64,000 nucleotides of DNA from Candidatus Poribacteria bacterium (GTDB taxonomy: Bacteria; Poribacteria; WGA-4E; WGA-3G), in the NCBI GenBank assembly GCA_012270795.1, contig JAAXHO010000196.1, positions 1 through 64,000 on the forward strand. The letters run 5' to 3'. The position numbers were made by a program, and so were the translations under genes. Positions within the stretch are counted from its first letter, which is position 1. Each line of letters opens with the position of its first letter. The notes beneath the pieces are model-generated. The model saw only the letters and a program-made list of their open reading frames with translations. It was not told where the DNA came from and searched no databases. Shown one piece after another: positions 7,324 through 35,031 of this stretch.

Positions 7324-8748
7324 TTACTTAATAGCAGGTGGTAGTGAGATATCCAATCCCAAATCAGGAATCTGTTTTAGTAATTTTTGGAGTGGTTCCA
7401 TATCCTGAATTGGATTGTCTCCAATAAATAAACGCCTTAAGCTTGTAAAGTTTTCAACAATACTGATATCGCTAATTTGGTTTCGTTCAAGGTATAAGAA
7501 ATGGATTTTTGTTGCCTCAGCAATCGGTGAAATATCGTGGATTTGATTACCCTCAAAGTTTACTTCTTTCAAATCTGTCAATTCAGCAAGGGGTGCGATA
7601 TCGCTAATCTGATTTATGTGGAGGTATAACCTTGTCAACTGCACTAAATCAACTAGCGGCTCTATGCTGCTAATCTGATTTTCCGAGAGGTCTAACCGTG
7701 CTAACTTTGCCAAACTCGCAAGTGGTTCTATATTGCTTATTCGGTTTTTGTGTAGATGCAACGATGTTAACTGTGTAAACTTGGCAACTGGGTTTATATC
7801 ATTGATTTGATTTCCCCCTAACCCCATATATTTCAATTGTGTTAACCCCGTCAACGGTGTAATGTCGTTGATTTGATTCCTACCAAGAAAGAGTCCTGTT
7901 ATCTGCTTCAAGTTAGCGAGTGGTTCTATATTCGTGATCTGATTTCCATTAAGCGATAAACTTGTCAACTGTGTCATGCCTGAGAGTGGTGTAATATCAG
8001 TGATTGGATTATAGTCAAGCTCCAATTCTGTTAAATTTGGCAATTCCGTGAGTGGTTCTATATTACTGATCTGATTTCTCCAGAGCCGTAACTTCGTTAA
8101 CTGCGTCAATTCCGTGAGTGGTTCTAAATCTGCGATCTGATTTTCCCGAAGTTCTAAATACGTTAGGGACGTTAATTCTGAAATAGGTTTAAAATCACGG
8201 ATAGGATTTTTGCTAAGCGACAGTACTTGTAACTGTGTCAAACCAATGAGAGGTCTAATATCACTGACTTGACAACCGCCAAGGCCTAAACGGATAGGAT
8301 TTTTGCTAAGCGACAGTACTTGTAACTGTGTCAAACCAATGAGAGGTCTAATATCACTGACTTGACAACCGCCAAGGCCTAAATGGGTTAACTTCCTCAA
8401 ATTAGCAATCGGTCTTATGTCGCTAATCGGGTTGTTAGAAAGTGATAACGTAGTGAGTTGTGTCAAATTAGCAATTGGACTGAGAGTGCTGATTTTATTA
8501 TCAGAGACTTTTAAGACCTTTAATTTTGTCGCTTTTTCCAGTCCCGTTAAGTCTATTATGTTGTATTGGTAAGTAGTAAGTTCCTCTAATTCTTTCAACT
8601 TCTTTTCTGGAATCGGATCACTTGGATCTAAGTTGAGAGCTTCACGCACGACAGCGGCTAAGTTCGGATCTGGTATAGTTACATTTTGCTTAGATGAACA
8701 ACTGAGGGAAATTATCGGTATTGCAAATAACGCACAAAGATGTCTCAT
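7324..8748 (-). CDS. Leucine-rich-repeat protein, probable exported or lipoprotein
   Basis: A hydrophobic N-terminus ending in SLSC suggests export, perhaps as a lipoprotein, although the lipobox is not canonical. After a short cap (residues ~20-65) come about 18 internalin-type LRRs of 22 residues with consensus LxxLxxLxLxxNxIxDIxPL. The protein probably presents a curved binding surface outside the cell. No catalytic domain is seen. Within the array 31 residues are exactly duplicated in tandem, which breaks the 22-residue register. AGGAAG lies 8 bases upstream of the ATG at 8748. The gene sits between two DUF1501 paralogues in the same orientation. Confidence 0.85.
   Translation of the reverse strand: MRHLCALFAIPIISLSCSSKQNVTIPDPNLAAVVREALNLDPSDPIPEKKLKELEELTTYQYNIIDLTGLEKATKLKVLKVSDNKISTLSPIANLTQLTTLSLSNNPISDIRPIANLRKLTHLGLGGCQVSDIRPLIGLTQLQVLSLSKNPIRLGLGGCQVSDIRPLIGLTQLQVLSLSKNPIRDFKPISELTSLTYLELRENQIADLEPLTELTQLTKLRLWRNQISNIEPLTELPNLTELELDYNPITDITPLSGMTQLTSLSLNGNQITNIEPLANLKQITGLFLGRNQINDITPLTGLTQLKYMGLGGNQINDINPVAKFTQLTSLHLHKNRISNIEPLASLAKLARLDLSENQISSIEPLVDLVQLTRLYLHINQISDIAPLAELTDLKEVNFEGNQIHDISPIAEATKIHFLYLERNQISDISIVENFTSLRRLFIGDNPIQDMEPLQKLLKQIPDLGLDISLPPAIK
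8198..8383. repeat. Exact 93-bp tandem duplication inside the LRR gene
   Basis: Positions 8198-8290 and 8291-8383 are identical by eye and directly adjacent. The unit is 93 bases (31 codons), so the frame is kept. It is not a multiple of the 66-base LRR unit, so it inserts an extra one-and-a-half repeats. Absence of any difference between the copies suggests a very recent event. Confidence 0.9.
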
Positions 8749-8850: not shown

Positions 8851-10329
8851 TTATGCCAATATCTCATTGACAACCCTTGCTTTTTCCTCAACGCCAGTCA
8901 ACCGATGGTCAAGCCCTTGGAACTTAAAGGTCAACCGTTCGTGGTCAATACCGAGTTGATTGAGTATCGTAGCGTTTAGGTCGCGCACAGAAACAGGGTC
9001 TTTGACGATGTTGTAACTGAAGTCATCTGTTTCACCGTGAACGATTCCACCTTTTATACCGCCGCCAGCCATCCAAAGGGTGAAGCATTTCGGATGATGA
9101 TCGCGTCCGTAGTTATCCTTTTTGAGCGCGCCTTGGCAGTAAACAGTCCGTCCGAATTCACCACCCCAGACAACGAGTGTTTCATCAAGCATGCCGCGTT
9201 GTTTCAAGTCTTGGACGAGTGCGGTTGCAGGTTGGTCGATATCGCGTGCCTGATTCCGAATGTTCTTGGGTAAGTCACCGTGCTGGTCCCAACCGCGATG
9301 GAAGATTTGTACCAAACGGACATCCCGTTCCATCATCCGGCGTGCCAGGATACAGCAATTCGCAAACGTCCCAGGGGTGTCAACTTCAGGTCCATACATC
9401 TCCTTAACTTTGTCAGACTCCTGTTTAAGATCAGTGAGTTCAGGGACAGAGGATTGCATCCTGAACGCCATCTCATATTGTGAGATACGGGCATGCGTTT
9501 CTGGATCGCCTACCTCCTCATAGAGTTCTTCATTCAGTTTGACCAGCGAGTCAAGCATCCGTTTCCGTGCTTTTTCGCTCATGCCTTTCGGATTTGAGAG
9601 GAATAGCACCGGATCGCCTTGACTACGGAGTAGCACACCTTGGTGTTCTGATGGGAGGAACCCCGAACCCCATAGGCGGTTGTAAAGAGCTTGCGCGCCC
9701 TTCGGACCGCTCCAGGTCGCGTTCATCACAATAAAAGCGGGTAGGTTTTGATTCTCACTGCCTAACCCGTAACTAAGCCATGCACCGAGACTGGGTTTTC
9801 CGGGCGTTTCGTCACCGGTACACACAAACGTGATAGCTGGATCATGATTGATAGCCTCGGTGTGAACACTTTTGACGATAGCGATGTCTTTAACCATAGT
9901 TGCGGTATGGGGTAACAATTCGCTGAGCCATGCGCCATCACTACCGTTGTCGTGCTTTTTGAACTCAAAGATAGACGGGGCAATTGGGAAGCGAGCTTGT
10001 CCAGAGGTCATCGTTGTAAGTCGTTGTCCCATCCGCACCGTTTCTGGCAGGTCTTTATCAAACCATTCACCCATTTTCGGTTTGTAATCAAATAGGTCCA
10101 TCTGTGAGGGTGCACCGGACATGAATAGATAGATAGCACGTTTCGCCTTTGGTGCAAAGTGCGGCAGTTCAGGCAAACCACCAATTCGCGTTCCAGCTTG
10201 CTGTTCAAGTGCATTGACAATACTATTCGGCAGCATTGAGGCGAGGGCTGCACCACCAAGTCCCATCGCACATTTGCCGAAGAATTGGCGGCGCGTTTCA
10301 AGTTTCAGATATTCCTTAATCGGGTCCAT
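8851..10329 (-). CDS. DUF1501 protein, copy 2, with Tat signal
   Basis: This is the intact 492-residue paralogue of the gene at 5.8-7.3 kb. The N-terminus carries a twin-arginine export motif, RRQFF at residues 13-17, followed by a Gly/Ala-rich hydrophobic stretch ([12 protein letters not shown]). The body has DUF1501-typical segments such as GGEFGRT and [10 protein letters not shown] that could bind metal in the alkaline-phosphatase-like fold. AAGGA precedes the ATG at 10329. In Planctomycetes DUF1501 genes usually sit beside DUF1549/DUF1553 (cytochrome-linked) genes; none is found here. The function remains unknown beyond probable periplasmic location. Confidence 0.9.
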
Positions 10330-11574: not shown

Positions 11575-11671
11575 TTTTCGTAACATCAATCTATAGAAAT
11601 AATGCAATACAGTCATATAAGGAATTCAAATTGTGAGTCAAAACGATATAGAAGAAAAGGATAACGAACTC

Positions 11672-13552
11672 ATGAAAAAAACACTGTTTCTAATTTTTGC
11701 AATTGGTTTAGCGATATGTGTTATTCCACAAAACAGCATCACACAAAATACACAAGACTGGCATTTGCAGGGTTTGTCCGAGGGCGCGAAAGCGCGGATT
11801 GGTAAAGGCGCGATGACTGGAAGAATCGCAAGTTCCCATGATGGGAAACGTTTGGCTGTGGCTTGTAGCACTGGTATTTGGGTATATGATGCAGAGACGG
11901 GTAAAGTGCTTAGTCTGCTGGTAGGACATACGTATAAGGCTTTGAACGTAGCGTTCAGCCCCGACGGGTTGCTGTTGGCAAGTACAAGCTACGATAAAAC
12001 TGTCCGTGTGTGGGATTCACGCACCGGCACTGAACTTTGGACGCTGCAAGGACATGAGAGTGTAACCACAGACGTAGCGTTCAGCCCGGATGGAAAAACA
12101 CTGGCAAGCGCAAGTGAAGACGAGACCATCCGTTTGTGGAATGTGCGCACTGGTACACATCTAAAGACGCTGACGGGGCATATAGAGGGTGTAACAAGCG
12201 TAGCATTTAGTCCGGATGGGAAGACACTGGTGAGTGGGAGTGAGGACAAAATGCTGCGGCTGTGGGATGTGGAGACAGGGAAAACGATTCTGCCGCTTAT
12301 AGGACATAGGAGTCCAGTCTTAGACGTTGCGTTCAGTCCAGATGGGAAAATGCTTGCGAGTGGGAGTCGGGACAAAACTATCAGGCTGTGGGATATGCAA
12401 ACGGTTGATTCTCATCGGACGTTAATTACACATAGCGAAGATGTCTATAGTGTAGCGTTCAGTCCAGATGGAAAAATATTGGCGAGTGGGAGTCGGGACG
12501 ACACTGTCCGTCTATGGGATGTGCAGACAGGAACACATCTACGGGTGTTGTATGGGCATCAGGTTGATGTGATGAACGTTCTATTTAGCTCGGATGGGAA
12601 GACGTTGATGAGTGGTAGCAGAGACAACACTGTGCGTCTATGGGATGTGGAAACCGGCGAAGAACTTCGGAAGATAGTGGAACGGACGCAAAGTATCCGT
12701 AGTATAGCGTTCAGTCCGGATGGGAAGATGCTGGCAGGTGGCACGCGGGGCAACACCGTTTATCTATGGGATGCACAGACGTGTGCTGTAATTCGGACAA
12801 TGGAAGGGCATACCGAGCCTGTCTATAGCGTTGCGTTCAGTCCGGATGGAAAGACACTGGCGAGTGGGAGTTGGGACAAGACTTTGGGTTTGTGGGATGT
12901 CCAAACAGGTGCAGCACTGCCGCTGCTCTTGTCTGGTTCTGGTGGGGTCAGAAGCGTTGCATTTAGCCCAAATGGCAAGAAGTTGGCGAGTGCAATTAAT
13001 GATGGCATCATCTATTTGTGGGATATGCATACACAAAAACGGATAAACATGCTGGAAGCGAAACAGAATAGTCAGGTCAATAGTGTAGCATTCAGCCCAG
13101 ACGGTTCTGTGTTAGTCGCCGGGTATAATGGAGGCATTTCGCGCACCTGGGATGTGCATAGTGGTTCGCTGCTTTTGACTTTTAATGATAAGCTGGCGTG
13201 GAAAGTTCAGTGTGTTGCGTTTAGTCCAGATGGACAAACGATCGCAAGTGGCCATGAGAACAAAATTGTACGTTTATGGAATGCGGAGTCGGGTGAATTG
13301 CTTTGGACGTTGAAAGCGGATAAGTTACATCATCCCTATAGTGTAGCATTCAGTCCGGATGGCAAGATGTTGGCGAGTGGAGGTACTAGCAGCAGCATCC
13401 ATCTATGGGATGTGCGCACTGGCACTCTTCTTCGAACATTGAAAGGGCACCAGAGTTCTGTCAGTTGCGTTGTGTTTAGCCCGGATGGGAAGACCTTGGC
13501 AAGTGCGGGTGGTAGCACTGTGTTGTTGTGGGAACTTGAGGTTGATAAATGA
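11672..13552 (+). CDS. Secreted WD40-repeat protein (14 repeats)
   Basis: From ATG at 11672 (AAAGGA 10 bases upstream) the product is 626 residues. It opens with a signal peptide (KKTLFLIFAIGLAICVIP) and then carries about 14 WD40 repeats of 42 residues, consensus VxSVAFSPDGKTLASGSxDK followed by TxRLWDxxTG. Fourteen repeats would build two seven-bladed propellers. No other domain is present, so a role in binding or scaffolding outside the cytoplasm is the most that can be said. The high similarity between repeats suggests recent expansion or gene conversion. A broken shorter paralogue follows directly, sharing the same signal peptide. Confidence 0.9.
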   Translation: MKKTLFLIFAIGLAICVIPQNSITQNTQDWHLQGLSEGAKARIGKGAMTGRIASSHDGKRLAVACSTGIWVYDAETGKVLSLLVGHTYKALNVAFSPDGLLLASTSYDKTVRVWDSRTGTELWTLQGHESVTTDVAFSPDGKTLASASEDETIRLWNVRTGTHLKTLTGHIEGVTSVAFSPDGKTLVSGSEDKMLRLWDVETGKTILPLIGHRSPVLDVAFSPDGKMLASGSRDKTIRLWDMQTVDSHRTLITHSEDVYSVAFSPDGKILASGSRDDTVRLWDVQTGTHLRVLYGHQVDVMNVLFSSDGKTLMSGSRDNTVRLWDVETGEELRKIVERTQSIRSIAFSPDGKMLAGGTRGNTVYLWDAQTCAVIRTMEGHTEPVYSVAFSPDGKTLASGSWDKTLGLWDVQTGAALPLLLSGSGGVRSVAFSPNGKKLASAINDGIIYLWDMHTQKRINMLEAKQNSQVNSVAFSPDGSVLVAGYNGGISRTWDVHSGSLLLTFNDKLAWKVQCVAFSPDGQTIASGHENKIVRLWNAESGELLWTLKADKLHHPYSVAFSPDGKMLASGGTSSSIHLWDVRTGTLLRTLKGHQSSVSCVVFSPDGKTLASAGGSTVLLWELEVDK

Positions 13553-13760: not shown

Positions 13761-14382
13761 ATGCAAAAGACACTAATTTTCATTTTTGCAATTGGTTTAG
13801 CGATATGTGTTATTCCACAAAACAGCAACACACAAGATACACAGGATTGGCATTTACGGAACTTACCCGAAGGTGCAAGAGCACGGCTCGGTAAAGGCTG
13901 AATAAGAGGGAATATAAGCTATTCTCATGATGGAAAGTATTTGGCGGTCTCGTGTAGCACAGGTATTTGGATTTATGATGCACACACAGACAAACCACTC
14001 CAATTTCTCACAGGACATACGGACTTTGTTTTGATGACAGTGTTCAGTCCAGATGGGACACTGTTGGCAAGCGGGAGTGCAGACAGGACTATCCGTTTAT
14101 GGGATGCGCGCACAGGTACAGAACTACGGAGGATGACAGGACATGTAGAAGGTGTTGAAGGCATTGCGTTCAGTCCAAATGACAAGATGTTGGCAAGTGG
14201 TGGTTGGGACAGAACCGTTAGTCTGTGGGATACCCCGCACTGGTGCCTTCATAATCGAGTTTAAAGCACATACGTATCCTATATATAGCCTTGCGTTCAG
14301 TCCTGATAACAAGACGCTGGCAAGTGGCAGTAGTGATGGCACTGTGCTGTTATGGGTTCTCGATCATGGTGATGCAGATTAG
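13761..14382 (+). pseudogene. Broken WD40-repeat paralogue
   Basis: A Shine-Dalgarno (AAGGA) precedes ATG at 13761. The signal peptide is nearly identical to that of the intact gene upstream (IFAIGLAICVIPQNS). After 46 codons an in-frame TGA at 13899-13901 replaces a sense codon of the paralogue, and WD40 sequence then continues in the same frame. A second lesion lies near 14235, where a run CCCC appears to hold one C too many. Reading CCC restores ...WDTRTGAF and the last repeat to a stop at 14382. Only about five repeats remain. Two independent lesions make a decayed gene more likely than readthrough. Confidence 0.8.
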
Positions 14383-17679: not shown

Positions 17680-17722
17680 TTGACATGTTTTCGTCTATGT
17701 TGTAATATGTCCAAATATTACA
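17680..17722 (+). promoter_or_regulatory. Promoter with palindromic operator for the small WD40 lipoprotein
   Basis: TTGACA at 17680-17685 and TAATAT at 17703-17708 are separated by 17 bases, a near-consensus sigma-70-type promoter. The -10 box overlaps an exact palindrome, TGTAATAT (17701-17708) with ATATTACA (17715-17722), a likely repressor site. The gene start is 20-40 bases downstream. Confidence 0.65.
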
Positions 17723-17739
17723 TGCACAAGGAGATAACT

Positions 17740-18039
17740 TTGAAAAGAAGCTTATTGATACTCAGTATTTTCCTCGCCATGATGATCGTTGCGTGTGGTG
17801 GTGATGAGGAGACCACCACGCCTATTGAAGACGACAAAATGGTGACGAATGGCGACAAAATAGATAACGGTACAGAAACACCCATAGACCCACCCCCAGA
17901 ACCTGCCAGAACCTACTATTCAGGCACACTCACAGGGCATACAGATAAATTCTACACCGTAGCGTTCAGGCCGGATGGGAGCACCCTCGCCAGTGGGAGT
18001 GATGACAACACCATTCATATGTGGGATGTAAGTGAGTGA
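17740..18039 (+). CDS. Short lipoprotein with a single WD40 repeat
   Basis: A TTG start at 17740 is chosen because AAGGAG lies 6 bases upstream and the product then begins with a lipoprotein signal (KRSLLILSIFLAMMIVACGG; lipobox I-V-A-C). The mature part is a 35-residue acidic, Thr/Pro-rich linker and one WD40 repeat (TVAFRPDGSTLASGSDDNTI), about 99 residues in all. One blade cannot form a propeller, so this is probably a truncated gene. Its stop is 12 bases before the family 1 palindromic element, which may have replaced the rest. The strong promoter and operator upstream are intact. Confidence 0.6.
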   Translation: MKRSLLILSIFLAMMIVACGGDEETTTPIEDDKMVTNGDKIDNGTETPIDPPPEPARTYYSGTLTGHTDKFYTVAFRPDGSTLASGSDDNTIHMWDVSE

Positions 18040-18253: not shown

Positions 18254-18370
18254 AAAACCGCGGAATGCACGGTGGACACAAAGCAAAACGAATCTTAATG
18301 TAAACCCCAACAAACGCTTTTCCGTTATAACACTAATACATACACAAACTATTCTACGGAGCGTTCCCTT

Positions 18371-21300
18371 TTGTACCCAAAGTCCGGACATAGATATATT
18401 TTTCTGTTTATCCTCGCATGTTGTTTTCTCTTTTTTATACAACCAGTCCAAACAGCAGATAAAGTTGAACCCGACCCACCTCCACAACAAGAAACTACAA
18501 GTCCAACACAGGATGAGAATCCGTTTATCAAGAAACCCAAAAAAGATAAATGGCCACAAAGTGAACCGAAAACAGAGAAAACTGATGAAGAAGTAGACAC
18601 AGAAATCCCTTTACGTCGTCAGATATTGTTCCCTTATTTAGATACCCTTAAGCGTTGGAAATACCCGCCCAACCTTGGTGATCTATCTGAACTTTACGAC
18701 TGGAAACCACGTCCAAAATCCGAAACAAAAGGGATTGATCTGCCAATGGATTCAAACCTGCGCATTACAGGTTACCAATCCGTAACAATTGAGGTCAATA
18801 AAACACACTATTTCGGAGAAGGTGATTTAAACCGTTATGGTGGATACAGCTACGGCAGCTATGGAGACTACGGGTCAGGACTCGATCTCGGATTGAGTTC
18901 CTCTTATGGATATGATGATTTCGGTTATAGCAGCGGGTTCGGTAGTGGATACGGCAGCTTTGGATCATCTTATGGAAGTGGTTACAGCAGCTACGGTGGT
19001 GTTCCACGGGCAACTGGTATCAACATCCGACAACAACAAAGAATAGGATTGCACGGACGTGTTGGTGAACGCATACACATAGAAGTAGACTATAATGCAG
19101 GGGATACTTATGGGGGTGGATATGGTGGGTTAAGCAGCTACGGAGGATATGGACTCGGGGGCGCAAAAGAACAGAAAATAAAGGTCTGGTATGAGGGGAA
19201 ACCAGATAGTATCATCAAAACAATATCCTTCGGTGACATCACACTGAGTCTTCCGAACACACGTTTCTTGAATATCAACAGAAATCTTTTTGGTCTTGAA
19301 GGTGTATTTGAATATAAGAATACACGGATGACGGTTTTCGGTTCACGGAGTAGGGGTGTCCGCGAAGTCAGAACCTTCCGCGGTCAATCGCGCAGAGCAA
19401 GTTTCGGCTATGGTCCACGTGGGATTCAGATCGCAGACGCAAATTATGTAAAAAATAGATTCTACCTCGTCCATAAAGGTGAAGAAGACTTGATACACGA
19501 GGCATACCTACCCATTAAAGCTGGAAGCGTTGAAATCTATATTGATGATAACGTAGTCGGAAACAACCAAGGGGGGATTCTTACCAGTCAAGGATACTTC
19601 AACCCACAGTTCCCCGGTCAAGACTACAACATTGATTATCAAACCGGTGAAATAGAATTTCTATCACCTATCTCAACAAGTTACACCATCATCGTCGCTT
19701 ACGAGTACCTCGGAGATGGCGGCGGCACCATTGGAAATCCCGGAAACGTCTTCGTTGATGAAAACAGTGATGGCACGATTGATGAAGAAGGAGAACAGAT
19801 CGGTTACGTTGTATTAAAGGCAAAAGGATTTCGCGGTACTGCTGCCTCACACGTCTACAGTCTGGGAAACAGAAATATTAATCCGCGCGACTTTCAGTTG
19901 ACTATCCTCCGTCAAGGCGAAAGTGAAACCTTTGAGACCGAAACTGGGCCCGTACCATACATTGAAATCTTTGGTTTAGACCAAAACCGAGACGGGCTCA
20001 TAGATCCTGATTTCATTGACTATGACAGGGGATTACTACGTTTCCCAGATTTAAACCCATTTCAGATCAACGATCCACAACACCCATATTACCAATATAA
20101 AGATGATCTGAATAACGAAGATATTTACTTGGAATCCTTACGGAGCACTGACCAAATATACACTATCGTTGCTGATTACGCATACCAATCTGAAACATAC
20201 AACGTCGGACTGTTTGTTATTCCCAATAGCGAAACCGTGCGCCTAAACGGTAGACTTCTCACACGCGATACCGATTATATGATGATTTACGAAGTCGGCA
20301 CCATTCGCTTTTTTACTGAACTGGACGAATTTGACGAAATCGTCGTAGAATTTGAAAAGACACCTTTCGGCGGCGGCACACAGCAATCAGTTCTCGGTGT
20401 CTGGTTAGATTACACACACAAACCTAAACCAAAATCGGAAAAAGAGCAGAATCTTGAGGATAGATTCAATCGTTTAGGTGGATTTCAAACATCGCTACCC
20501 GGGTTTGACAATACTCCCAGCACAGATGCGTTTTCTGAAAGATTTCCTAATACTGGAACGCGTTCAGGAAGTAGACTCGGCAATTTTGGTATAGGAGGTA
20601 CTGGTTTCGGCGGCAGTGGTTTCGGTGGAAGTGGGTATAGCAGCTTCGGAAGTTTCGGCGGCCGTTCAAGAGTAGGAACGAGTTATTATGGAGGATACGG
20701 AGCAGGAACGACATATTTTAATCCCGTTTTTCAAAAAGGTTTTAACATCTCAACAGGATACATCCTAACAACAGGACAGCAATCGGTACAAATACCTAAT
20801 GTCAATGAGGTACCCAACCGATTACAAGCGTTTAATATCAACACCAGCTTTGGAAGAGAGTTCAACATCGCCTGGTTGCTAAACCCATTGCCTTTTGTCA
20901 ACCTACGTAGATTTCCCCTTTCTATAGACTTTAGTGGAGAATCGGCTTACTCACATAATAATCCCAATAGCGTTGGTGTCGCTTTGATTGATAGCATGGA
21001 AGGCGTGAAGCAAACCACAACGATACCAACTATAAAATATAGTTGGAAACCGAGTAGTATCCCTTATGTCACTGAATCACAACAAACGAACTCGTCAACA
21101 CACTCTTATGCCGTTTTACCTACGCAAGAAAATAGAGTTCTCTTTAATGTCGTATTAAAGGACAAAGAGGAAGCAGAAGCTATCGGAAACTATATGCGAA
21201 ATAGAGACGTTCCCGCATCATCCATCCAACCCCTGTCACTTTCAACAGAAGAACGGTTGATTATGGAAATCGGCTACGATTTCAATGACGTAATTGAGGA

Positions 21301-24300
21301 GTGGGGAGGCTTCTCAAACGGTGTCTCAAAATCAGGGGTTGACTACTCAGAACGCGGTTTTATAGAGATGTGGTTGCGCGTACAAGGCGATGACGATATC
21401 ACCTTATACCTCAACCTCGGTGCTGTGAATGAAGACACAGATGCAGATGGACGACTTGACAGTGAAGACCTACCCCCATTATTAGAGGATACCAACGGTG
21501 ACCAGGTTGTGGACGCACTTGACATTGACCTTGAAAACCTGCCGGAAACACAAAAATACCGTGGCAATGGGAGATTGGATACGGGGGAAGATGTTGGCTG
21601 GCGTTATGATGGTCCATTCCAACCTGAATCTTTCGGGGCGAATAATCAAGTTTTAGATAGTGAAGACCTCAACGGCGACGGTGTCCTGGATAGCGTTGAT
21701 GCATACTTTCAGGTCGCAATCCCACTCAATGAAATTCCGAATGAATGGATTAAAGGTAAAAACAGCAACGGTTGGACGTTCCTAAGCATCCCACTAACAG
21801 AATTTCTACCCGAAGGTTCGCGTGTTCCAAGTCTCGTGTTTGTCCAGCATTTCCGCCTATGGCTCATGAAAAACCGGCCGGAAAACGTCAAAGGAACGTT
21901 CCAGTGGGCTTCAATTGAAATCGTCGGAAACAGGTGGGAACAAGGTGTCGTTACAAAACCTGTCATAGAAACATCCACAAACCTTGCCAATAGTCAGGTT
22001 GTGCAAGATACATTAGAAAAGTTCATCGTTGGTACTAAGGACAACTTCAGTTATGATGATTACCAGAGCGCGTACTTGGAGATTGAAGATGATGAACTCT
22101 TCAGAAAACTTCACCCTTTCACAGCCACCTCTCTCGGTTTTCAAACGCAGCAACAACGCGAACAAACCCTTAGCTTAGAATACTATCTTTTTCCCGGTTC
22201 ACACGGTGTCACTTCTAAGCAGCTCAAGGGGTTTACACAAAGCGAAGGACAAGATTTCAGCACACACGATACACTCCGACTCTGGTTGTATGGTGACAAA
22301 AGTGATACAACATTTGTGCTCCAACTCGCGCCTAACGTACGAACGGGTTACCGAAGTTCCTTCTATAGTGCCGATCCTTTCCTAAATCAACCGACACAGG
22401 AAGAGGATGTCAATATCTTTGATAACCTCACCAATTACTACGAATACACTGTGCTGGTTGACTTTGAAGGTTGGAAACTCATTGAAATTGACCTACGCGA
22501 CAACAGAAGAAATGAATATCCAGACCAAATAGAGGAACAAGACTTTGAAACAGATACAACACGCTCATCACAAACATCCCCCATCGAAAATGCACCTGAT
22601 GGACACCCAGATGGTTTCGTTGTGCGTGGAACAGGAACAAGCACATCACAACTATCAGTAAAAAACATCGGAGGGATTTTACTCGGCATCCGAAACGATA
22701 CTAACCGAGAAATCAGTGGTGAAGTCTGGGTAAACGAAATACATCTCGGTGATCCGCTTATACGTGCTGGATGGGCGCGGCGTGGTAATATGTCTGTTTC
22801 ATTCGGTAGAATCGTCCGACTGCGCGGAGGTTACGCCAGTCAAGACAAAGACTTTGAAAGCGGTGCCGGTGAAATTGGTCGGCAACGTTTATCCTCACGA
22901 GGATATAGCACGACTAATAACGACTACAATATTGATGCAGATGTAACTATCTTTTCATGGCTACCCATCCGATATTCTATACGCGAACAAGAATCCGAAA
23001 CAGAAGCACTACGCGGCAGCTACACTTCGTTTATTAGCGGCAAGAGCGAAACCCATAACAGAGATATATCGGTACAATTCAACAAAAACCCTTTCCCAAA
23101 CCTCAGCTTCGCATATAACTATCAGGATTTTTGGAATGAACGCCAAGGCACACAGATTAGCCATCTCTATACCGGCACTTTTCGCTACGCATTCGGTTCA
23201 AAACTCGGTTTCAATCTGCAATATCGACACGAAGACATCATCGCACAACCCGAAACAGCAACAGATACCTCCACAACTTCTACCTCTTTTTACAGCTACG
23301 GATACGGCAGAAACCGTGATGAAAAAACCGACAGTGGATCCATATCTCTCAACATCAGTCCAATCAACGCATTCAGTCTAAATCCAAGCTATGACATTCG
23401 CAGAACACTTGAAAGACGTAACACAAACCAATTTACAACTAACTCTTTTTTTCCTAATACATCCAATTTTATTTCTACCACTGAAGATGAATCCAGTGAG
23501 GACATACTCCCCGATTTCATCTTAGCTGAACGGGAACACAGAGTCTCTCTGACCCCGCGTCTAAATCGTGACCTATTCGGTTTGCGTCCCACAGTAACAA
23601 GCCGTATCAGTTTCAGAGAAAACTGGTTCACAGAACAGAAAGACGCATCACTCAACGGAAATATCAGCCTCGGTTTGAACATACGCATTCAGAAATGGTT
23701 CAGATGGGTATTTACTGAATCTGAACAAAAAGATAGTCCAAAAGAAAACACTACTAACAGAACAACGGAAATACCGAAACTAGACCAACAGCAAACGGAA
23801 AAGTTACGTGAAATGGGTATTGATGAAGCAAAAATCCAAGAACTAACTGAAGAACAAACCGACTGGATAAATCGTGATAAGGCAGAAATGGATCAAAAGC
23901 AGATTAACAATGCGACAGCACAGGGACAAAGCTCCCCGCAACAATCCAAACAGGAAGGTATTCTCCAACGGATTATCAATACCTTTACCATCAACACCAA
24001 TGCAAATTTCAACGCCAGTGAGTTTTTCCGGCGGTTAGACTCTGGCCAGTCTTTGTTAGATATCTGGGAACTTGAACCAGACGCAGAGGAGAGAAGCAAC
24101 TCAAATAGAAGCAGCCGATACAGTCTCCGCACCTCCACGGATCCGCTAAAATGGCTCTCCTTCGGAACAAATGTCAGTTTCTCCGATAGCTTCCGCAAGA
24201 GTTATGCAACCACCTATACATCACAAGCAGAATCTTATGAAGTCGACATCAAACTAAATTCACAACAAGCATCAAGTTTCCAACTGCGATATAGTTTGAC

Positions 24301-24787
24301 AATACGGCAAAATTCTAACCTTGATGTTACCCTGAGCGACAGTACCGCACACACGCCTTCTGTCAGTTGGTTACATAAATGGAGCGATGAAACACGCACT
24401 TCATTAGGCATCCGCACAACCCTACGCGATCACTTACGAAGTGGAATTGAGAGCAACGCACTCATCATTACACCTAACTTTAGTATTGACTATCGCTATC
24501 ACACTAAAGGCGGCATCCGCATACCATTCTTCGGTAGAATTCCGCTCAAGCACGACCTTGACCTCACGAATACCTTCTCTTTAGCTATCCGAAGGGAGAA
24601 CTACGGTATTAATAAAGAGGAACGGTCCGAACGCTACGAAACAACGTTACGCGTAGGATACAAACTTAGCCAGCATCTTACGGCAAATCTACATTTGGGT
24701 TTGAGTTACAACCACGATCGCGTTGAGGAAGGAAGGGATTACCTCTCCATCGCAAGCGCACTCACGGTGAGAGGTGAATTTCAATAA
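18371..24787 (+). CDS. Giant SprA-like cell-surface/outer-membrane protein
   Basis: This 2138-residue protein has an N-terminal signal peptide (FLFILACCFLFFIQPVQTA). The TTG start at 18371 is preceded by CGGAG 10 bases upstream. Gly/Ser/Tyr-rich stretches lie near residues 155-215 and 740-765. Several calcium-binding-like Asp-rich loops occur (DENSDGTIDEEG, DQNRDGLIDPD, DLNGDGVLDSVD). Segments resemble SprA/Sov, the very large beta-barrel of the type IX secretion translocon: QDYNIDYQTGEIEFLSPIS near residue 430 and EVWVNEIHLGDPL with AGWA near 1450, followed by many alternating, strand-like repeats to the end. SprA is about 2400 residues, a similar scale. It may be an outer-membrane export pore or a related surface protein; no other type IX component is in the window. 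Confidence 0.7.
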   Translation: MYPKSGHRYIFLFILACCFLFFIQPVQTADKVEPDPPPQQETTSPTQDENPFIKKPKKDKWPQSEPKTEKTDEEVDTEIPLRRQILFPYLDTLKRWKYPPNLGDLSELYDWKPRPKSETKGIDLPMDSNLRITGYQSVTIEVNKTHYFGEGDLNRYGGYSYGSYGDYGSGLDLGLSSSYGYDDFGYSSGFGSGYGSFGSSYGSGYSSYGGVPRATGINIRQQQRIGLHGRVGERIHIEVDYNAGDTYGGGYGGLSSYGGYGLGGAKEQKIKVWYEGKPDSIIKTISFGDITLSLPNTRFLNINRNLFGLEGVFEYKNTRMTVFGSRSRGVREVRTFRGQSRRASFGYGPRGIQIADANYVKNRFYLVHKGEEDLIHEAYLPIKAGSVEIYIDDNVVGNNQGGILTSQGYFNPQFPGQDYNIDYQTGEIEFLSPISTSYTIIVAYEYLGDGGGTIGNPGNVFVDENSDGTIDEEGEQIGYVVLKAKGFRGTAASHVYSLGNRNINPRDFQLTILRQGESETFETETGPVPYIEIFGLDQNRDGLIDPDFIDYDRGLLRFPDLNPFQINDPQHPYYQYKDDLNNEDIYLESLRSTDQIYTIVADYAYQSETYNVGLFVIPNSETVRLNGRLLTRDTDYMMIYEVGTIRFFTELDEFDEIVVEFEKTPFGGGTQQSVLGVWLDYTHKPKPKSEKEQNLEDRFNRLGGFQTSLPGFDNTPSTDAFSERFPNTGTRSGSRLGNFGIGGTGFGGSGFGGSGYSSFGSFGGRSRVGTSYYGGYGAGTTYFNPVFQKGFNISTGYILTTGQQSVQIPNVNEVPNRLQAFNINTSFGREFNIAWLLNPLPFVNLRRFPLSIDFSGESAYSHNNPNSVGVALIDSMEGVKQTTTIPTIKYSWKPSSIPYVTESQQTNSSTHSYAVLPTQENRVLFNVVLKDKEEAEAIGNYMRNRDVPASSIQPLSLSTEERLIMEIGYDFNDVIEEWGGFSNGVSKSGVDYSERGFIEMWLRVQGDDDITLYLNLGAVNEDTDADGRLDSEDLPPLLEDTNGDQVVDALDIDLENLPETQKYRGNGRLDTGEDVGWRYDGPFQPESFGANNQVLDSEDLNGDGVLDSVDAYFQVAIPLNEIPNEWIKGKNSNGWTFLSIPLTEFLPEGSRVPSLVFVQHFRLWLMKNRPENVKGTFQWASIEIVGNRWEQGVVTKPVIETSTNLANSQVVQDTLEKFIVGTKDNFSYDDYQSAYLEIEDDELFRKLHPFTATSLGFQTQQQREQTLSLEYYLFPGSHGVTSKQLKGFTQSEGQDFSTHDTLRLWLYGDKSDTTFVLQLAPNVRTGYRSSFYSADPFLNQPTQEEDVNIFDNLTNYYEYTVLVDFEGWKLIEIDLRDNRRNEYPDQIEEQDFETDTTRSSQTSPIENAPDGHPDGFVVRGTGTSTSQLSVKNIGGILLGIRNDTNREISGEVWVNEIHLGDPLIRAGWARRGNMSVSFGRIVRLRGGYASQDKDFESGAGEIGRQRLSSRGYSTTNNDYNIDADVTIFSWLPIRYSIREQESETEALRGSYTSFISGKSETHNRDISVQFNKNPFPNLSFAYNYQDFWNERQGTQISHLYTGTFRYAFGSKLGFNLQYRHEDIIAQPETATDTSTTSTSFYSYGYGRNRDEKTDSGSISLNISPINAFSLNPSYDIRRTLERRNTNQFTTNSFFPNTSNFISTTEDESSEDILPDFILAEREHRVSLTPRLNRDLFGLRPTVTSRISFRENWFTEQKDASLNGNISLGLNIRIQKWFRWVFTESEQKDSPKENTTNRTTEIPKLDQQQTEKLREMGIDEAKIQELTEEQTDWINRDKAEMDQKQINNATAQGQSSPQQSKQEGILQRIINTFTINTNANFNASEFFRRLDSGQSLLDIWELEPDAEERSNSNRSSRYSLRTSTDPLKWLSFGTNVSFSDSFRKSYATTYTSQAESYEVDIKLNSQQASSFQLRYSLTIRQNSNLDVTLSDSTAHTPSVSWLHKWSDETRTSLGIRTTLRDHLRSGIESNALIITPNFSIDYRYHTKGGIRIPFFGRIPLKHDLDLTNTFSLAIRRENYGINKEERSERYETTLRVGYKLSQHLTANLHLGLSYNHDRVEEGRDYLSIASALTVRGEFQ

Positions 24788-24892: not shown

Positions 24893-24921
24893 TATGGTGG
24901 TAGGACGTTTCCTGTATTCCA

Positions 24922-24994
24922 TGGGGCGTACTGGATTTGAACCAGTGACTTCTACCGTGTGAAGGTAGTGCTCGTACCCCTGAGCTAACGCCCC
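24922..24994 (-). tRNA. tRNA-Val (CAC)
   Basis: A 73-base cloverleaf folds on the minus strand. The acceptor is GGGGCGT paired with ACGCCCC, the D-arm contains GCTCAGGGGTACGAGC, the anticodon stem is CTACC/GGTAG with loop TTCACAC, and the T-arm is CTGG-TTCAAAT-CCAG. The anticodon is CAC, so it is tRNA-Val. The 3' CCA is not encoded. It lies 11 bases downstream of the next tRNA and is probably co-transcribed with it. Confidence 0.95.
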
Positions 24995-25005
24995 AAGTGA
25001 GGAGA

Positions 25006-25078
25006 TGGGCCCACTAGGACTCGAACCTAGGACCAGCCGGTTATGAGCCGGCGGCTCTGACCACTGAGCTATGGACCC
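25006..25078 (-). tRNA. tRNA with CAU anticodon (Ile2 or elongator Met)
   Basis: A 73-base cloverleaf folds on the minus strand. The acceptor is GGGTCCA/TGGGCCC, the D-arm GCTCAGTGGTCAGAGC, the anticodon stem GCCGG/CCGGC with loop CTCATAA (anticodon CAT), and the T-arm CTAGG-TTCGAGT-CCTAG. A paired 1-72 position (G-C) and no GGG/CCC anticodon stem argue against the initiator. TGGTC in the variable loop resembles the lysidine-modified tRNA-Ile2, but elongator Met cannot be excluded. CCA is not encoded. Confidence 0.93.
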
Positions 25079-29800: not shown

Positions 29801-32800
29801 CTATTCAGGCGTGGAAATGATAACATTATCCTGAAAGATTGGGGATAGGTAGTTGGGATCCGCATCATTACGGAAAAGGATATGCCATTCTTCAGCAAAT
29901 GATTGTCTATCCTCGTCAGGATATTTACGTATTAGATTAGACATACTGGTTCTTGAAATCATATAGGCATCCATTTGTACAAGTTCACCGCGAAAGCGTT
30001 CATGAGAAAGGTCGCGTAATCTTTTAAAAAGCGTTATTTTCTTGTTGGGTTCATTGATGACTTCATGTACCATGCTGTGAGGCTCAATAAAGACGATACG
30101 TTGTTTTTTCCCTTCAAGTATCCAGAGGATAAAGTCAGGGTAAAAACCTTCATTTACGAAAAAACCGATACCTTTGCCGCGGCTATGGTTACGTAAGAGG
30201 AAAACCTGTTTTTTGGCAAGAAGTTTCTCACCTTGACCACGTACGTAACGACGAAGATCTTCTACAAAGTGTTTTTCACTTTCCTCTAAGGCTGGTGGAG
30301 TTGTACGTAATAGTGCGTCTGCTTCACCTACGGTAAGAAGTGGTTGGTAGAGATGACGGTCGTTATAGACATTCGGAAGATTCGTTAAGTCAGGTCCGTA
30401 AATATCACCATTTTCTATGAGATGTTTTATTTGTGGTTCAAGCTCACTTGCATCTTCTCGAGGAATAGATACCTTCCAATTTGTGAAGTTACGATTGTTT
30501 TTATCTAATTTCCCTGGACGCACTGCTTCATCATTCCAACGTTTCTGAATGATGCGGTAGAATTTGGAGATATATTTGCGGAGGAGTGTTAGTACTAATT
30601 CCTCTAATCGTTTCAATTCAGCAAATGATTTCGGCATAACTTCAGACTCATCCATGATATAAAGTTCATATAAACCTAAGTTTGGATTAAGTATCTGCTT
30701 GAGAATCTCGGTGTTAAAGATCAGATTATGAAATTGTTTTTCCTGCTTATACTCAAGGAGTTGCAAGTAAATGTGCTCCCAGTCCACCAGTTTCAAGTAT
30801 TTGTCTTCAATATGAGTTTGGAGTGCCGCATCAGCGCGATCGCTTTGAATACCACTTTGTGAACTACTGCCAATAATCTCTACGCTTTGAGTCGTATGGG
30901 TAATAATAGCTGCTGGATCTGCGTCAAGCAGGACACACTTTCCTTTAGCAGCTTTGTTATACTCCAAGACTTTTGGAACAAAAAGTTGATTCGAAAGGTA
31001 AGTCATGTTGGGCTTGATGGGTAATTCCAATTGGACTGGTTCCTCGGGTGGGACACCTTCACGCATAAGGTAATCTCGGAATTGTACCATGAAATTGGCA
31101 CGGACAGCAAAGATGTTGAGTGTTTCTAAAAGTGGGAGATTAAGTGGATGTTCGCCATGAATCGCGCTACTACGTTTGAGACACATATCCTTACCACGTA
31201 GCCGAACTCCTCTACCGAAAAGTTGAATAATCTGAGAACCTTCTTGCTTACCAATGTTCAATAGTCCCATAGCGGTGACACGCCAACTGTCCCACCCTTC
31301 AATGAACTTTTTCGCACCAATGAGGATATTAATTGGACTGTCAAAGGTGTTTATGTCGTTAAAGAGACTCTCGGTGAGAACATCTTCAGAATCTGTTTTA
31401 ATACCTGCATCGTCATTTTCAACAAGTTTTTTGAAGGCAGACGTGTCGCCAATGTAAATGAGTCCGAATTCCTTACTACCGTGTGTAGTTCTCAAAGCGA
31501 TTTCACCTGGGGTGTTTCGGATGCCACACAGGTGCAATTCCCCACTTGAGTCTGTGTGAAATACTTCTTTGAGAATAGCGATGTAAATTTGCGCTGGTGT
31601 ATCTTCGGATTCTTTGAGATAGCCGAGACGATTGTAAAAAACATCGCTACCGTTGCCATCTTTTAATCCGGAATCGTTGTTGAGAATTTTCTCAATAGTA
31701 TCAATTGCCCAACCCTTTTCATTTTTCAGGAACTGGTGCAGAAAGCGGATAACATTAAGAACATCAGAACGTGATTGTTTGTTTTCGGTATAAACGGCAT
31801 TCACCCTACTACCGACAAATGCCCATAGTGGCGAGTCTAAACCGTAGGCACGCACTGCTGCAGTGTTTTGACTGAAATAACGTCTCTGTTCATAGAAACT
31901 CAGGAGATTCCCCAAAAGCAGTGTTTCGATTTGTGTTGCATCATCGTGCATCACATTGAGTATACGGAAGTTCTTACCGTACCCATCACCGTAGAAATAT
32001 CGGTAGGAGTAGTCAAATACGATGGCTTTTCCGTATTCATCAATGAGGTCGGCATTGCTTGCAGCGGCAAGTGCCTGCCCAAAGGTCGCGCTGTATTCAA
32101 AAGTAAAACCTGTTTCGGCGAGTGCTTCTCGGTATTCACGCCAGACTTTACCACCACTGCCTTTATGTCCTTCATCTACAAAGATGAGATTATTTCCCTC
32201 AAATGCCTCAACTGGAACGCTTACGCCGCTACCTGTTTTTTCCTCTACTAACTTTGTAATTTCAATGACTTGCATGGTGTCGTGCGCGAAACGATTACCT
32301 TCAACGTTAAAACGTTCACATCGGATATCCGAATTTGCTAATTCGCGCATGTGTTGTTCGCTTAATCCTTCGTTTGGTGTGATAAGCACAATGTGGTCTA
32401 ACTTCTCTTTGCAGTAATGCAGATATTGGTGAAAGTTGATGTGCATGATGAGGGTTTTCCCTGCCCCCGTTGCCATCCAAAAGGCAAGTTTTTCGACGTC
32501 TGCTTCTGAAAAAAGGGTATCCATCGCGTCACTGGGTGCTCTTGCATCGTTACGAGTTTGGACAAAACCGTTGAGTTGACGCAAGAACTCTGCAGGTTTG
32601 TTGAATTTCCAATCCAAAAAGATTTCTGTGTAAAGCAGTGCAAGGTATTGAAAATAGCGAAGGACAATTGGCTGTGTCCGTTTACTGTTTATCGCAGCTA
32701 AGTGCCGTTTGATGTTGGCATCGTAAGTTGGCAGTACTTCAGCTATCGGAGAATCTGGATCTGCTTGAGAGATAAGAAATTCACAGATGGGAGAGTGACC

Positions 32801-32938
32801 ATCTGGATTGAATCCTTCCTCTTCGTTTTTTACTGCGTTGAGAAGGGCTTGTGTGGTTTTGTATTTGAAGTGACTATTTAACCATCCGTGAAGGGTAAGG
32901 TGATTTTCAAGTTTGCGTTGTGTATTGTTTCTCGGCAT
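29801..32938 (-). CDS. Type III-like restriction enzyme, Res (helicase-nuclease) subunit
   Basis: This 1045-residue superfamily 2 helicase-nuclease cuts incoming DNA after translocation, together with Mod. Walker A is WMATGAGKT near residue 160, and the DEAD-type box is FVDEGHKGSGG near 253. Helicase C-terminal motifs appear in GWDSWRVTAMGLLNIGKQEG and QLFGRGVRLRG. The C-terminal nuclease region reads FYPDFILWILEGKKQRIVFI and then EPHSM, near residue 950. The PD and acidic residue are present, but His stands where PD-(D/E)XK nucleases have Lys. It starts 23 bases after the methylase gene and is co-transcribed with it. Confidence 0.9.
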   Translation of the reverse strand: MPRNNTQRKLENHLTLHGWLNSHFKYKTTQALLNAVKNEEEGFNPDGHSPICEFLISQADPDSPIAEVLPTYDANIKRHLAAINSKRTQPIVLRYFQYLALLYTEIFLDWKFNKPAEFLRQLNGFVQTRNDARAPSDAMDTLFSEADVEKLAFWMATGAGKTLIMHINFHQYLHYCKEKLDHIVLITPNEGLSEQHMRELANSDIRCERFNVEGNRFAHDTMQVIEITKLVEEKTGSGVSVPVEAFEGNNLIFVDEGHKGSGGKVWREYREALAETGFTFEYSATFGQALAAASNADLIDEYGKAIVFDYSYRYFYGDGYGKNFRILNVMHDDATQIETLLLGNLLSFYEQRRYFSQNTAAVRAYGLDSPLWAFVGSRVNAVYTENKQSRSDVLNVIRFLHQFLKNEKGWAIDTIEKILNNDSGLKDGNGSDVFYNRLGYLKESEDTPAQIYIAILKEVFHTDSSGELHLCGIRNTPGEIALRTTHGSKEFGLIYIGDTSAFKKLVENDDAGIKTDSEDVLTESLFNDINTFDSPINILIGAKKFIEGWDSWRVTAMGLLNIGKQEGSQIIQLFGRGVRLRGKDMCLKRSSAIHGEHPLNLPLLETLNIFAVRANFMVQFRDYLMREGVPPEEPVQLELPIKPNMTYLSNQLFVPKVLEYNKAAKGKCVLLDADPAAIITHTTQSVEIIGSSSQSGIQSDRADAALQTHIEDKYLKLVDWEHIYLQLLEYKQEKQFHNLIFNTEILKQILNPNLGLYELYIMDESEVMPKSFAELKRLEELVLTLLRKYISKFYRIIQKRWNDEAVRPGKLDKNNRNFTNWKVSIPREDASELEPQIKHLIENGDIYGPDLTNLPNVYNDRHLYQPLLTVGEADALLRTTPPALEESEKHFVEDLRRYVRGQGEKLLAKKQVFLLRNHSRGKGIGFFVNEGFYPDFILWILEGKKQRIVFIEPHSMVHEVINEPNKKITLFKRLRDLSHERFRGELVQMDAYMISRTSMSNLIRKYPDEDRQSFAEEWHILFRNDADPNYLSPIFQDNVIISTPE

Positions 32939-32961
32939 AAGAATTTCTCCGGTCAGATTTA

Positions 32962-35031
32962 TTATTCAAACATCAATTTTTTGAAAAGCGGATCTATGGG
33001 TTTCGCATCGGGAACAATAGAGTCGGTGTTTATATACACCTCATTTGCATCATCTGTGAGTTTGTTTTCCTGAATAAAACTGTAATCTCGTTCAAAATCT
33101 TGTTGTTCCCACCCCACAGTTTTACGCCAGATGATGACGAAGGTTTTTTGTCCGACTGTGCCTTTGTAGACAAGATAAGGTCTGTCATCATCTTTCAAGC
33201 ACTGACGCGTCTGGACTGACAGACCGAGCAGATAATTGAATGTTTCAGGTAAATCTATGTCTTGTTTCTGTGTCTGCATATCTTTGACGATCTTGAGTTG
33301 ATAACTGAACGGATTTTTGAGTTCGGAGATGTTTAGGAACGTTGGACTTTCCTTTGTATCGCTTTCCAGTATGTAATTCAGTTGGTGTTCGTCCATTAAC
33401 AGATTCTGATGTTCGGGTTCGTTGAATTCTATGTTGTTGAGGGCATCTTCATAAGATTCAATGCGCTGGTATTTGAACATGTGAGAGAGGCGACTCTCAT
33501 GGGATACAGGTTTTGCATCTTTCCACTTTTCAGCATATACGGCTTTCTTGATACGGGGTTTAAGGACGGTATCAAAATGATGTCCCACTTCAACGATGAT
33601 GTATTTACGATTGCCCTCATCTTCACGATTAAGATTAATGGCTGCATGGGCAGTAGTGCCTGAACCTCCGAAATAATCAAGCACAGTATCATTTTTATCA
33701 AGAGAAGAAACAGTTAGGCAATCCTCAACAAGATGGATAGACTTTGGAAACATGAACGCGAGACTATCACCTAGCATATTTGTTAAAAATATAGTGCCAT
33801 ATTGTGTTGATGAGTACTCTGTTTTGCCCCACCATGTCTTGGGTAGCATGCCTTCTTCGTTTAGATAACGTTTAATTGCAATCCGAATATTACCATGTCG
33901 ATCAGTTCTTGCGATAGTTTCCGATAATTTTTCAGACAATGTTTCAACTCCATATCCCCATGTCATCTCTTCACCATCTGGTTTGACTGGTAATACTTTT
34001 GTTTCATCTAGCCCTGGTGATTCCAAGAGATTCCATTGTCGACTCTGGTTATTCCATTCCATGCGAGGAATTCGAATCCTTTCATCCTTGACAAAGAGAG
34101 GATAGAACAAACGAGGACGTGCTGTTCGAAAAGCGTTGGGACCTCCACCACTTCTGAGCCCTTTCCAGGTGAAAAGGCGATCCTGCTCATCAATTTTGGC
34201 GTTCTCAAGCTGTTCTTTTGTTCTTTCAAGGCGACCAACTTTTGCTGATCCAGTCAATCCAAAGAACATTGCGTATTCATGTGCAGGTGCAAAGCCAGTT
34301 GGTCTTTGTCGACCTGCTGGATTAGAACAAACTGTTGCGGTTCCCAATTCATTTTCTTTCCCAAAAAGCTTTTGGAGTAACTGCCGTAGATTAGCGGCTT
34401 CTACGTCGTCAATCGCTGCACAAAAAATACCATTTTCTGTTAACATTCCTTGAGAGACTGAAATTCGATCTGCCATCAACGACATCCAAGATGAATCTTT
34501 GTAGTTGTTTTTATACAGAATTGCTGAAGCATCGGTGTTATAAGGTGGGTCAATATAGATGGCTTTTATAGATTCTTGATACTTCTCAGCCAACAGATTT
34601 AACGCTTGAAAATTCTCACCATGTATTAACAAACCGTCAGTCTCATTATCCAGATCGTCGAAATGTGCCAAGAGTCTATCCTTGAATTCAAAATCAAAGT
34701 TACCCGTGTCCAAAATCAAATTTGGGTTTTCTTTGAGGAAGTCAACGGAGATAGCAACCTCCCTGCCCTCCTTATCAGGAGGGTTGAAGAGGTTAGCGTC
34801 TATTTCGTGGATAGCAAAGAGGTCTTTCCATTCCTCAAGTTGTGGAGTATTCGCTATAATTTCAGGGTAAAATTCTTCTGGTACGCGGTCAAGCGTGAGG
34901 CAGTAGTCGGTGGAGAGAACAAACTTCTTTTTGAGCCAGAGACGTTTCTGAAATTCTTGTATGTGGGAAAGGAAATCAATGATTTTGGTGGCAATGGAGT
35001 GAACGAGTTTAGCGGATTCAATCCAACCCAT
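32962..35031 (-). CDS. Type III-like DNA adenine methyltransferase Mod, catalytic part
   Basis: This 689-residue beta-class N6-adenine methyltransferase has DPPY at residues 161-164 and, in the expected order, the SAM-binding motif VLDYFGGSGTTAHA near 445-457. With Res it forms a type III-like restriction-modification system; Mod also supplies target recognition through the C-terminal region. Its ATG overlaps the last codons of the upstream ORF by 14 bases (ATG...TGA), and no Shine-Dalgarno is visible. The N-terminal ~40 residues (ATKIIDFLSHIQEFQKRLW) look like the middle of longer Mod proteins of this type. This argues that the upstream ORF and this one were one gene of about 1055 codons. 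Confidence 0.9.
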   Translation of the reverse strand: MGWIESAKLVHSIATKIIDFLSHIQEFQKRLWLKKKFVLSTDYCLTLDRVPEEFYPEIIANTPQLEEWKDLFAIHEIDANLFNPPDKEGREVAISVDFLKENPNLILDTGNFDFEFKDRLLAHFDDLDNETDGLLIHGENFQALNLLAEKYQESIKAIYIDPPYNTDASAILYKNNYKDSSWMSLMADRISVSQGMLTENGIFCAAIDDVEAANLRQLLQKLFGKENELGTATVCSNPAGRQRPTGFAPAHEYAMFFGLTGSAKVGRLERTKEQLENAKIDEQDRLFTWKGLRSGGGPNAFRTARPRLFYPLFVKDERIRIPRMEWNNQSRQWNLLESPGLDETKVLPVKPDGEEMTWGYGVETLSEKLSETIARTDRHGNIRIAIKRYLNEEGMLPKTWWGKTEYSSTQYGTIFLTNMLGDSLAFMFPKSIHLVEDCLTVSSLDKNDTVLDYFGGSGTTAHAAINLNREDEGNRKYIIVEVGHHFDTVLKPRIKKAVYAEKWKDAKPVSHESRLSHMFKYQRIESYEDALNNIEFNEPEHQNLLMDEHQLNYILESDTKESPTFLNISELKNPFSYQLKIVKDMQTQKQDIDLPETFNYLLGLSVQTRQCLKDDDRPYLVYKGTVGQKTFVIIWRKTVGWEQQDFERDYSFIQENKLTDDANEVYINTDSIVPDAKPIDPLFKKLMFE

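Follow-up and report, generated by a model that had tools for sequence, protein, structure and literature searches.

Our study revealed that the open reading frame (ORF) at 18371..24787 on the + strand of a 64 000 nt stretch of Candidatus Poribacteria DNA (the whole of this stretch being referred to as the window) is a divergent homologue of SprA/Sov, rather than an NCBI equivalog, and a conserved core gene of the sponge-associated Poribacteria. We consider it highly probable that its product, a member of the SprA/Sov family, serves as the outer-membrane translocon in a type IX-like export system carried in the core genome of this phylum. This reading is based upon pore homology and fold, upon the phylum-wide co-occurrence of the pore with sorting tails, PorV-family proteins and C25/PorU-like peptidases, and upon a porU–porV gene pair and the conservation of the catalytic His and Cys of PorU. 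The translocon side of a type IX secretion system (T9SS) is present, and complete T9SS is not the label given here.

Results

The ORF and its protein

The ORF and the features recognized within it are as follows.

18371..24787, +: ORF, poribacterial SprA/Sov homologue of 2138 aa (TIGR04189, hhalign, Foldseek)
18358..18361, +: GGAG, ribosome-binding-site-like, 9 nt 5' of the TTG start (direct sequence reading)
18371..18457, +: signal-peptide-like N-terminus, residues 1-29, ending FLFILACCFLFFIQPVQTA (by eye; putative cleavage site)
18806..19045, +: Gly/Ser/Tyr-rich tract 1, residues ~146-225 (composition; pLDDT mostly <50)
19013..19465, +: SprA-model stretch 1, model 129-254 (E 1.8e-8)
19613..20416, +: SprA-model stretch 2, model 377-672 (E 3.1e-13)
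19757..19792, +: acidic DxDxDG-type loop 1, DENSDGTIDEEG, residue 463 (motif count vs shuffles)
19979..20014, +: acidic DxDxDG-type loop 2, DQNRDGLIDPDF, residue 537 (motif count vs shuffles)
20546..20725, +: Gly/Ser-rich tract 2, residues ~726-785 (composition; pLDDT <50)
20873..21145, +: SprA-model stretch 3, model 722-814 (E 5.4e-6)
21287..21469, +: SprA-model stretch 4, model 895-960 (E 1.1e-4)
21434..21469, +: acidic DxDxDG-type loop 3, DTDADGRLDSED, residue 1022 (motif count vs shuffles)
21638..22972, +: SprA-model stretch 5, model 1082-1500, containing EVWVNEIHL (E 2.4e-17)
21665..21700, +: acidic DxDxDG-type loop 4, DLNGDGVLDSVD, residue 1099 (motif count vs shuffles)
22775..24775, +: C-terminal predicted beta-barrel region, ~25 predicted strands (AlphaFold2 model; top PDB matches SprA)

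The four acidic loops compare with an expectation of 0.026 from shuffled sequences, in which the maximum was two, and loop 4 resembles DINGDNTLNETE of Parabacteroides distasonis SprA in a comparable local context. Both the Asp-rich loops and the added Gly/Ser/Tyr-rich stretches had been remarked upon in the first-pass annotation, and both were borne out by the four loops and two tracts listed. A match to CBM_11 was weak and under its cut-off, and was not used. The contig carrying the ORF is contig 154 of a 5.18 Mb draft.

Relationship to SprA/Sov

The first-pass annotation took the giant protein to be SprA-like and proposed an HMM search, and this search, using the NCBI SprA model TIGR04189, returned the ORF with an E-value of 5.5e-42 and 143.2 bits over the five collinear stretches listed above. 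This score lies below the 200-bit NCBI equivalog cut-off of the model, which was counted against the reading as a SprA/Sov translocon and is the reason for the name divergent homologue. Two class-level homologues outscored the ORF on the same model (161.5 and 173.1 bits), both also under 200. No other SprA-model gene was found in the genome of the ORF.

The reference used for direct comparison was the annotated SprA of P. distasonis (WP_320643378.1), which was reached by tblastn with the window protein and showed 20% identity to it over residues 1090-1481. Profile comparison by hhalign gave a probability of 98.3, an E-value of 1.3e-14 and a score of 133.9; the controls, in which the sequence was shuffled (four times) or reversed (once), reached 19.9-23.7. 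The segment EVWVNEIHL (residues 1451-1459), which had been singled out beforehand as typical of SprA, corresponds to EVWVNELRM in the same context of the P. distasonis protein. Locally, GIRNDTNREISGEVWVNEIHL of the ORF matches GVRNNTGDIKSGEVWVNELRM of P. distasonis SprA, the two being followed by AGWA and GGWA, respectively, and a second motif pair is formed by DLNGDGVLDSVDAYF and DINGDNTLNETEKYF in the same order. The SprA_N model PF14349 did not match the ORF, which was also weighed against the reading, and its control was silent too. Searches of PDB sequences by phmmer with the single protein, or by hmmsearch with a 14-member profile, returned nothing relevant because the family is too divergent in sequence, a question that was settled by folding.

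Predicted fold

AlphaFold2 was run without templates on two overlapping halves, using alignments of 44 poribacterial sequences. The model of residues 120-1180 (pLDDT 60, pTM 0.36) contains roughly a dozen candidate barrel strands, and that of residues 980-2138 (pLDDT 66, pTM 0.53) contains ~25 long strands from residue 1469 onward, which give the modelled C-terminal half the form of a large beta-barrel. When compared to the PDB by Foldseek, both halves placed the same four SprA entries first (8gl6, 8gl8, 6h3i and 6h3j), at E-values of 5e-29 to 1.4e-20 for the N-terminal half, with the next match at 1.4e-3, and of 6e-27 to 1e-20 for the C-terminal half, with the next matches, from 7.5e-6, being other outer-membrane or surface barrels. 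The TM-scores by query were low (0.27-0.33), as expected if half a barrel cannot close, and these scores were counted against the reading together with the moderate confidence of the models.

A 36-strand barrel had been put forward for structure prediction. The match of both halves to SprA and the ~25 C-terminal strands lend it support and, as the halves were modelled separately and at moderate confidence, a closed 36-strand SprA-type barrel with a lateral opening and a cap may be regarded as a candidate structure. Two outcomes had also been named as counting against a SprA-like protein, namely the lack of any SprA match and a fold other than a large barrel; testing returned the TIGR04189 match and a predicted large C-terminal beta-barrel.

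Distribution within the Poribacteria

Of 85 poribacterial genomes, 84 gave a homologue of the ORF, and the one that did not is an 81% complete draft. In most genomes the homologue is one continuous copy and frame, conservation extends through the final residues, and members down to ~41% identity share a similar length and plan. A chance open frame is ruled out by this breadth, by the continuous frame and by the conserved end, and the ORF is a conserved core gene of the Poribacteria. The genome collection yielded 67 relatives with a name, every one a member of Candidatus Poribacteria and the nearest at 93%, which upholds the poribacterial host on which the initial suggestion had been made conditional. 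No conserved gene neighbours of sprA were found across the phylum; a dispersed arrangement is also described in the literature for some of the T9SS genes in Bacteroidota.

Sorting tails, carriers and sortase

The type A sorting tail (TIGR04183, Por_Secre_tail) was found above cut-off in 83/83 genomes, usually at 20-60 per genome and at 31 places in the genome of the ORF (G000). The PorV/PorQ family (PorV_fam) was likewise above cut-off in 83/83 genomes, with about 10-24 genes per poribacterial genome and 16 copies in G000; the narrower PorV equivalog cut-off was not reached by the PorV-family copies checked. Matches to the PorP/SprF family were all sub-cut-off (best 52.7 vs 90.6 bits).

Peptidases of family C25 were present in 82 of 83 genomes, mostly two to four in each, with three in G000. 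The PorU model NF033707 (cut-off 420) scored 419.2 and 361.2 bits against two of these three, and 431.6 bits, over its cut-off, against one C25 peptidase of a second poribacterial genome (G023). The catalytic His and Cys were invariant in nine C25 sequences, eight of them poribacterial and the ninth the PorU of P. distasonis. A PorV-family gene begins no more than 15 bases after the porU-like gene in both G000 and G023, an order that matches P. distasonis. Another PorV-family gene adjoins a protein of ~1000 aa with a weak tail match in four genomes. That these genomes contain tails, PorV-family proteins and C25 peptidases resembling PorU supports the proposal, made from the window alone, of a divergent type IX-like export route.

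That proposal had also named WD40, LRR and dockerin proteins as the cargo, and here the outcome was mixed. At least one WD40 protein of G000 (L159:1760-4645) bears an above-cut-off tail. None of the window proteins scored against a tail profile HMM built here from eight poribacterial tails, and a Pfam scan of window proteins turned up no dockerin; as no window protein has a tail match, the WD40, LRR and other repeat neighbours are not established as cargo of the sprA product.

Motor and ring components

A search for porK, porL, porM, porN, porV and sorting domains had been suggested, and of these the PorV family and the tails were recovered, whereas GldL, GldM and GldN were not detected and GldK was represented only by its generic FGE-fold domain. 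GldM gave no match in 83 genomes, with no positive control responding, and its first domain gave only sub-cut-off noise in 15 genomes. In 59 genomes nothing credible was found for GldL, and GldN gave a single match of 16.1 bits and none above this, again with no responding positive control. The GldL-model matches, of up to 22 bits, were rejected as coiled-coil-like noise, since weak matches of this kind are also common in unrelated control genomes. Matches to the GldK model were many, mostly to the generic C-terminal FGE-fold part, with none over cut-off; they were rejected as GldK, as the same kind of match occurs in Bacillus subtilis and Caulobacter. As a positive-control attempt, gldKLMN were looked for in the Parabacteroides record on which sprA, porU and porV lie, and the stretches covered, nearly the whole of it, carry no such annotation. 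The Gld models derive from Bacteroidota and very divergent forms may escape them; for this reason, and because no positive control responded for GldM or GldN, the result is given as 'not detected' and not as 'absent'.

Two readings of this result have to be weighed. The Poribacteria may run a motorless type IX system, in which a SprA–PorV–PorU export and sorting module forms part of the phylum core outside Bacteroidota, works without GldL/M and the GldK/N ring, and would be driven by another energy source or by cargo folding or binding outside; we put this forward tentatively, at just short of an even chance. Alternatively, the system may be complete and of the known kind, with GldK, GldL, GldM and GldN present and too diverged for the Bacteroidota models, a serious contender that we place somewhat below an even chance. 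The ORF scores only ~0.06 bits per SprA-model position, a rate at which GldM would lie at the limit of detection and GldL or GldN below it, and this, together with the silent GldM and GldN controls, leaves absence unproven. Proteins with an FGE fold that resemble a part of GldK occur in large numbers. Set against a complete system are the failure of GldM in all 83 genomes and the noise-level GldM first-domain, GldN and GldL results described above, the far better conservation of PorU and the PorV-family proteins, and the occurrence of the mostly generic C-terminal GldK matches in Bacillus subtilis and Caulobacter.

Discussion

The pore most likely exports tail-bearing cargo, in concert with PorV carriers and PorU; the transport steps are inferred from those of Flavobacterium and Porphyromonas. 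Cargo that bears a Sec signal and, at its C-terminus, a type A sorting tail would reach the periplasm and enter the large SprA barrel, where it would bind a PorV-family carrier docked at the side opening of SprA and exit sideways together with this carrier; a PorU-like cysteine peptidase would then cut off the tail, leaving the cargo released or anchored. For Flavobacterium, it has been reported that loops of PorV within the SprA pore are bound by the tail of the substrate, which then exits sideways with PorV in a step that requires the GldL/M motor (PMC10994853). As GldL, M and N, the PMF-driven motor and ring of known systems, were not detected, several candidates for the power of export are retained, namely a divergent motor, another energy source, or none.

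A SprA relative with another job, such as a channel through which surface or S-layer-like proteins are exported or assembled independently of the tails, seems improbable. Its score under the SprA cut-off, the lack of a conserved neighbour tying the gene to cargo and the undetected motor would all suit such a role; however, tails, PorV-family proteins and PorU-like peptidases co-occur with it phylum-wide, and both model halves match SprA over any other barrel. Another very large outer-membrane barrel (LptD, a TonB-dependent receptor or the Deinococcus SlpA type), SprA-like by composition only, can be dismissed as very improbable, because such barrels, despite appearing lower down the C-terminal Foldseek list, trail SprA by ~15 orders of magnitude, the TIGR04189 match and the hhalign comparison with its shuffled controls are specific to SprA, and the N-terminal half matches SprA alone at E <= 0.001.

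As a SprA/Sov-family translocon, the poribacterial protein resembles SprA of Flavobacterium johnsoniae and Sov of Porphyromonas gingivalis in size, Sec-type N-terminus, collinear similarity, the EVWVNE segment, the predicted fold of both halves and its occurrence as a single gene without conserved neighbours. It differs in its low identity (~11-24% in alignments), its score under the equivalog cut-off and its two Gly/Ser/Tyr-rich tracts. At the level of the system, the pore, PorV-family carriers, PorU-like sortase, type A tails and porU–porV order are shared with the T9SS of Bacteroidota, whereas in Poribacteria GldL/PorL, GldM/PorM and GldN/PorN were not detected and GldK-like domains were generic only. 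A precedent for a motorless pore exists in Ignavibacterium and Melioribacter, for which SprA, PorV and Plug have been reported and no other T9SS protein (PMC11705866). These share with Poribacteria a pore and PorV without a recognized motor, but belong to a different lineage, and the Poribacteria add PorU-like peptidases and their much-repeated PorV-family genes.

The T9SS has been described as limited to Bacteroidetes or to the Fibrobacteres-Chlorobi-Bacteroidetes group (PMC4793230, PMC8754138, PMC11205867). In single-cell genomes of Poribacteria, Kamke et al. (2014) reported TIGR04183 tails on WD40 proteins, but did not find structural genes of the Por system, and concluded that the export route 'remains to be revealed' (PMC3909097). 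No open-access report of SprA, PorU or PorV in Poribacteria was found, in a search whose scope excluded most subscription papers and all preprints.

In summary, the current study describes what would be a new, phylum-wide type IX export module outside Bacteroidota, without a recognizable motor, and provides the pore, carriers and sortase that had been missing for the tail-bearing proteins of Poribacteria. The eukaryote-like repeat proteins, which are suspected of a part in sponge symbiosis, are thereby given an export route that can be tested. Should the motor prove to be truly absent, the question would also arise of how SprA–PorV transport works without the rotary motor that is thought to power it.

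Genes surrounding sprA

Upstream of sprA, which encodes the divergent homologue of the type IX secretion pore SprA/Sov, the window holds one WD40 protein together with two short fragments of the WD40 type; these fragments may represent remnants or pieces of frameshifted genes:

11633-13552, WD40 protein
13941-14264, short WD40 fragment
17680-18039, short WD40 fragment

Shortly downstream of sprA lie convergent tRNA-Val and tRNA-Met genes (24921-25078), and an N6/N4 DNA methylase adjoining a helicase (ResIII) at 29801-35031 resembles a type III-style restriction-modification pair. An LRR protein (7324-8748) matched internalin models with scores far below the model cut-offs, and its gene is flanked on both sides by full-length DUF1501 proteins (5805-7220 and 8851-10329).

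PorV/PorQ-family proteins and candidate cargo

The PLSDB record NZ_OY725768.1 (Parabacteroides, 388 kb) is listed as a 'plasmid' but resembles a chromosomal fragment; ftsZ and mur genes are present on it, as are sprA, porU and porV.

Genes of the PorV/PorQ family, to which type IX carrier proteins belong, were strikingly numerous both in the genome holding the window and in the rest of the phylum (~10-24 per genome), and these proteins are possibly cargo-specific carriers. In four poribacterial genomes, a PorV-family gene was adjoined by a gene for a ~1000-aa protein with a weak match to the C-terminal type A sorting domain (TIGR04183):

L157:7633-11806, ~1000-aa protein and PorV-family gene
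L162:4430-8543, the same pair
L165:7447-11673, the same pair
L169:4604-8679, the same pair

No Pfam family was detected in the one copy of the ~1000-aa protein scanned. This protein and its adjoining PorV-family protein may constitute a dedicated carrier-cargo pair.
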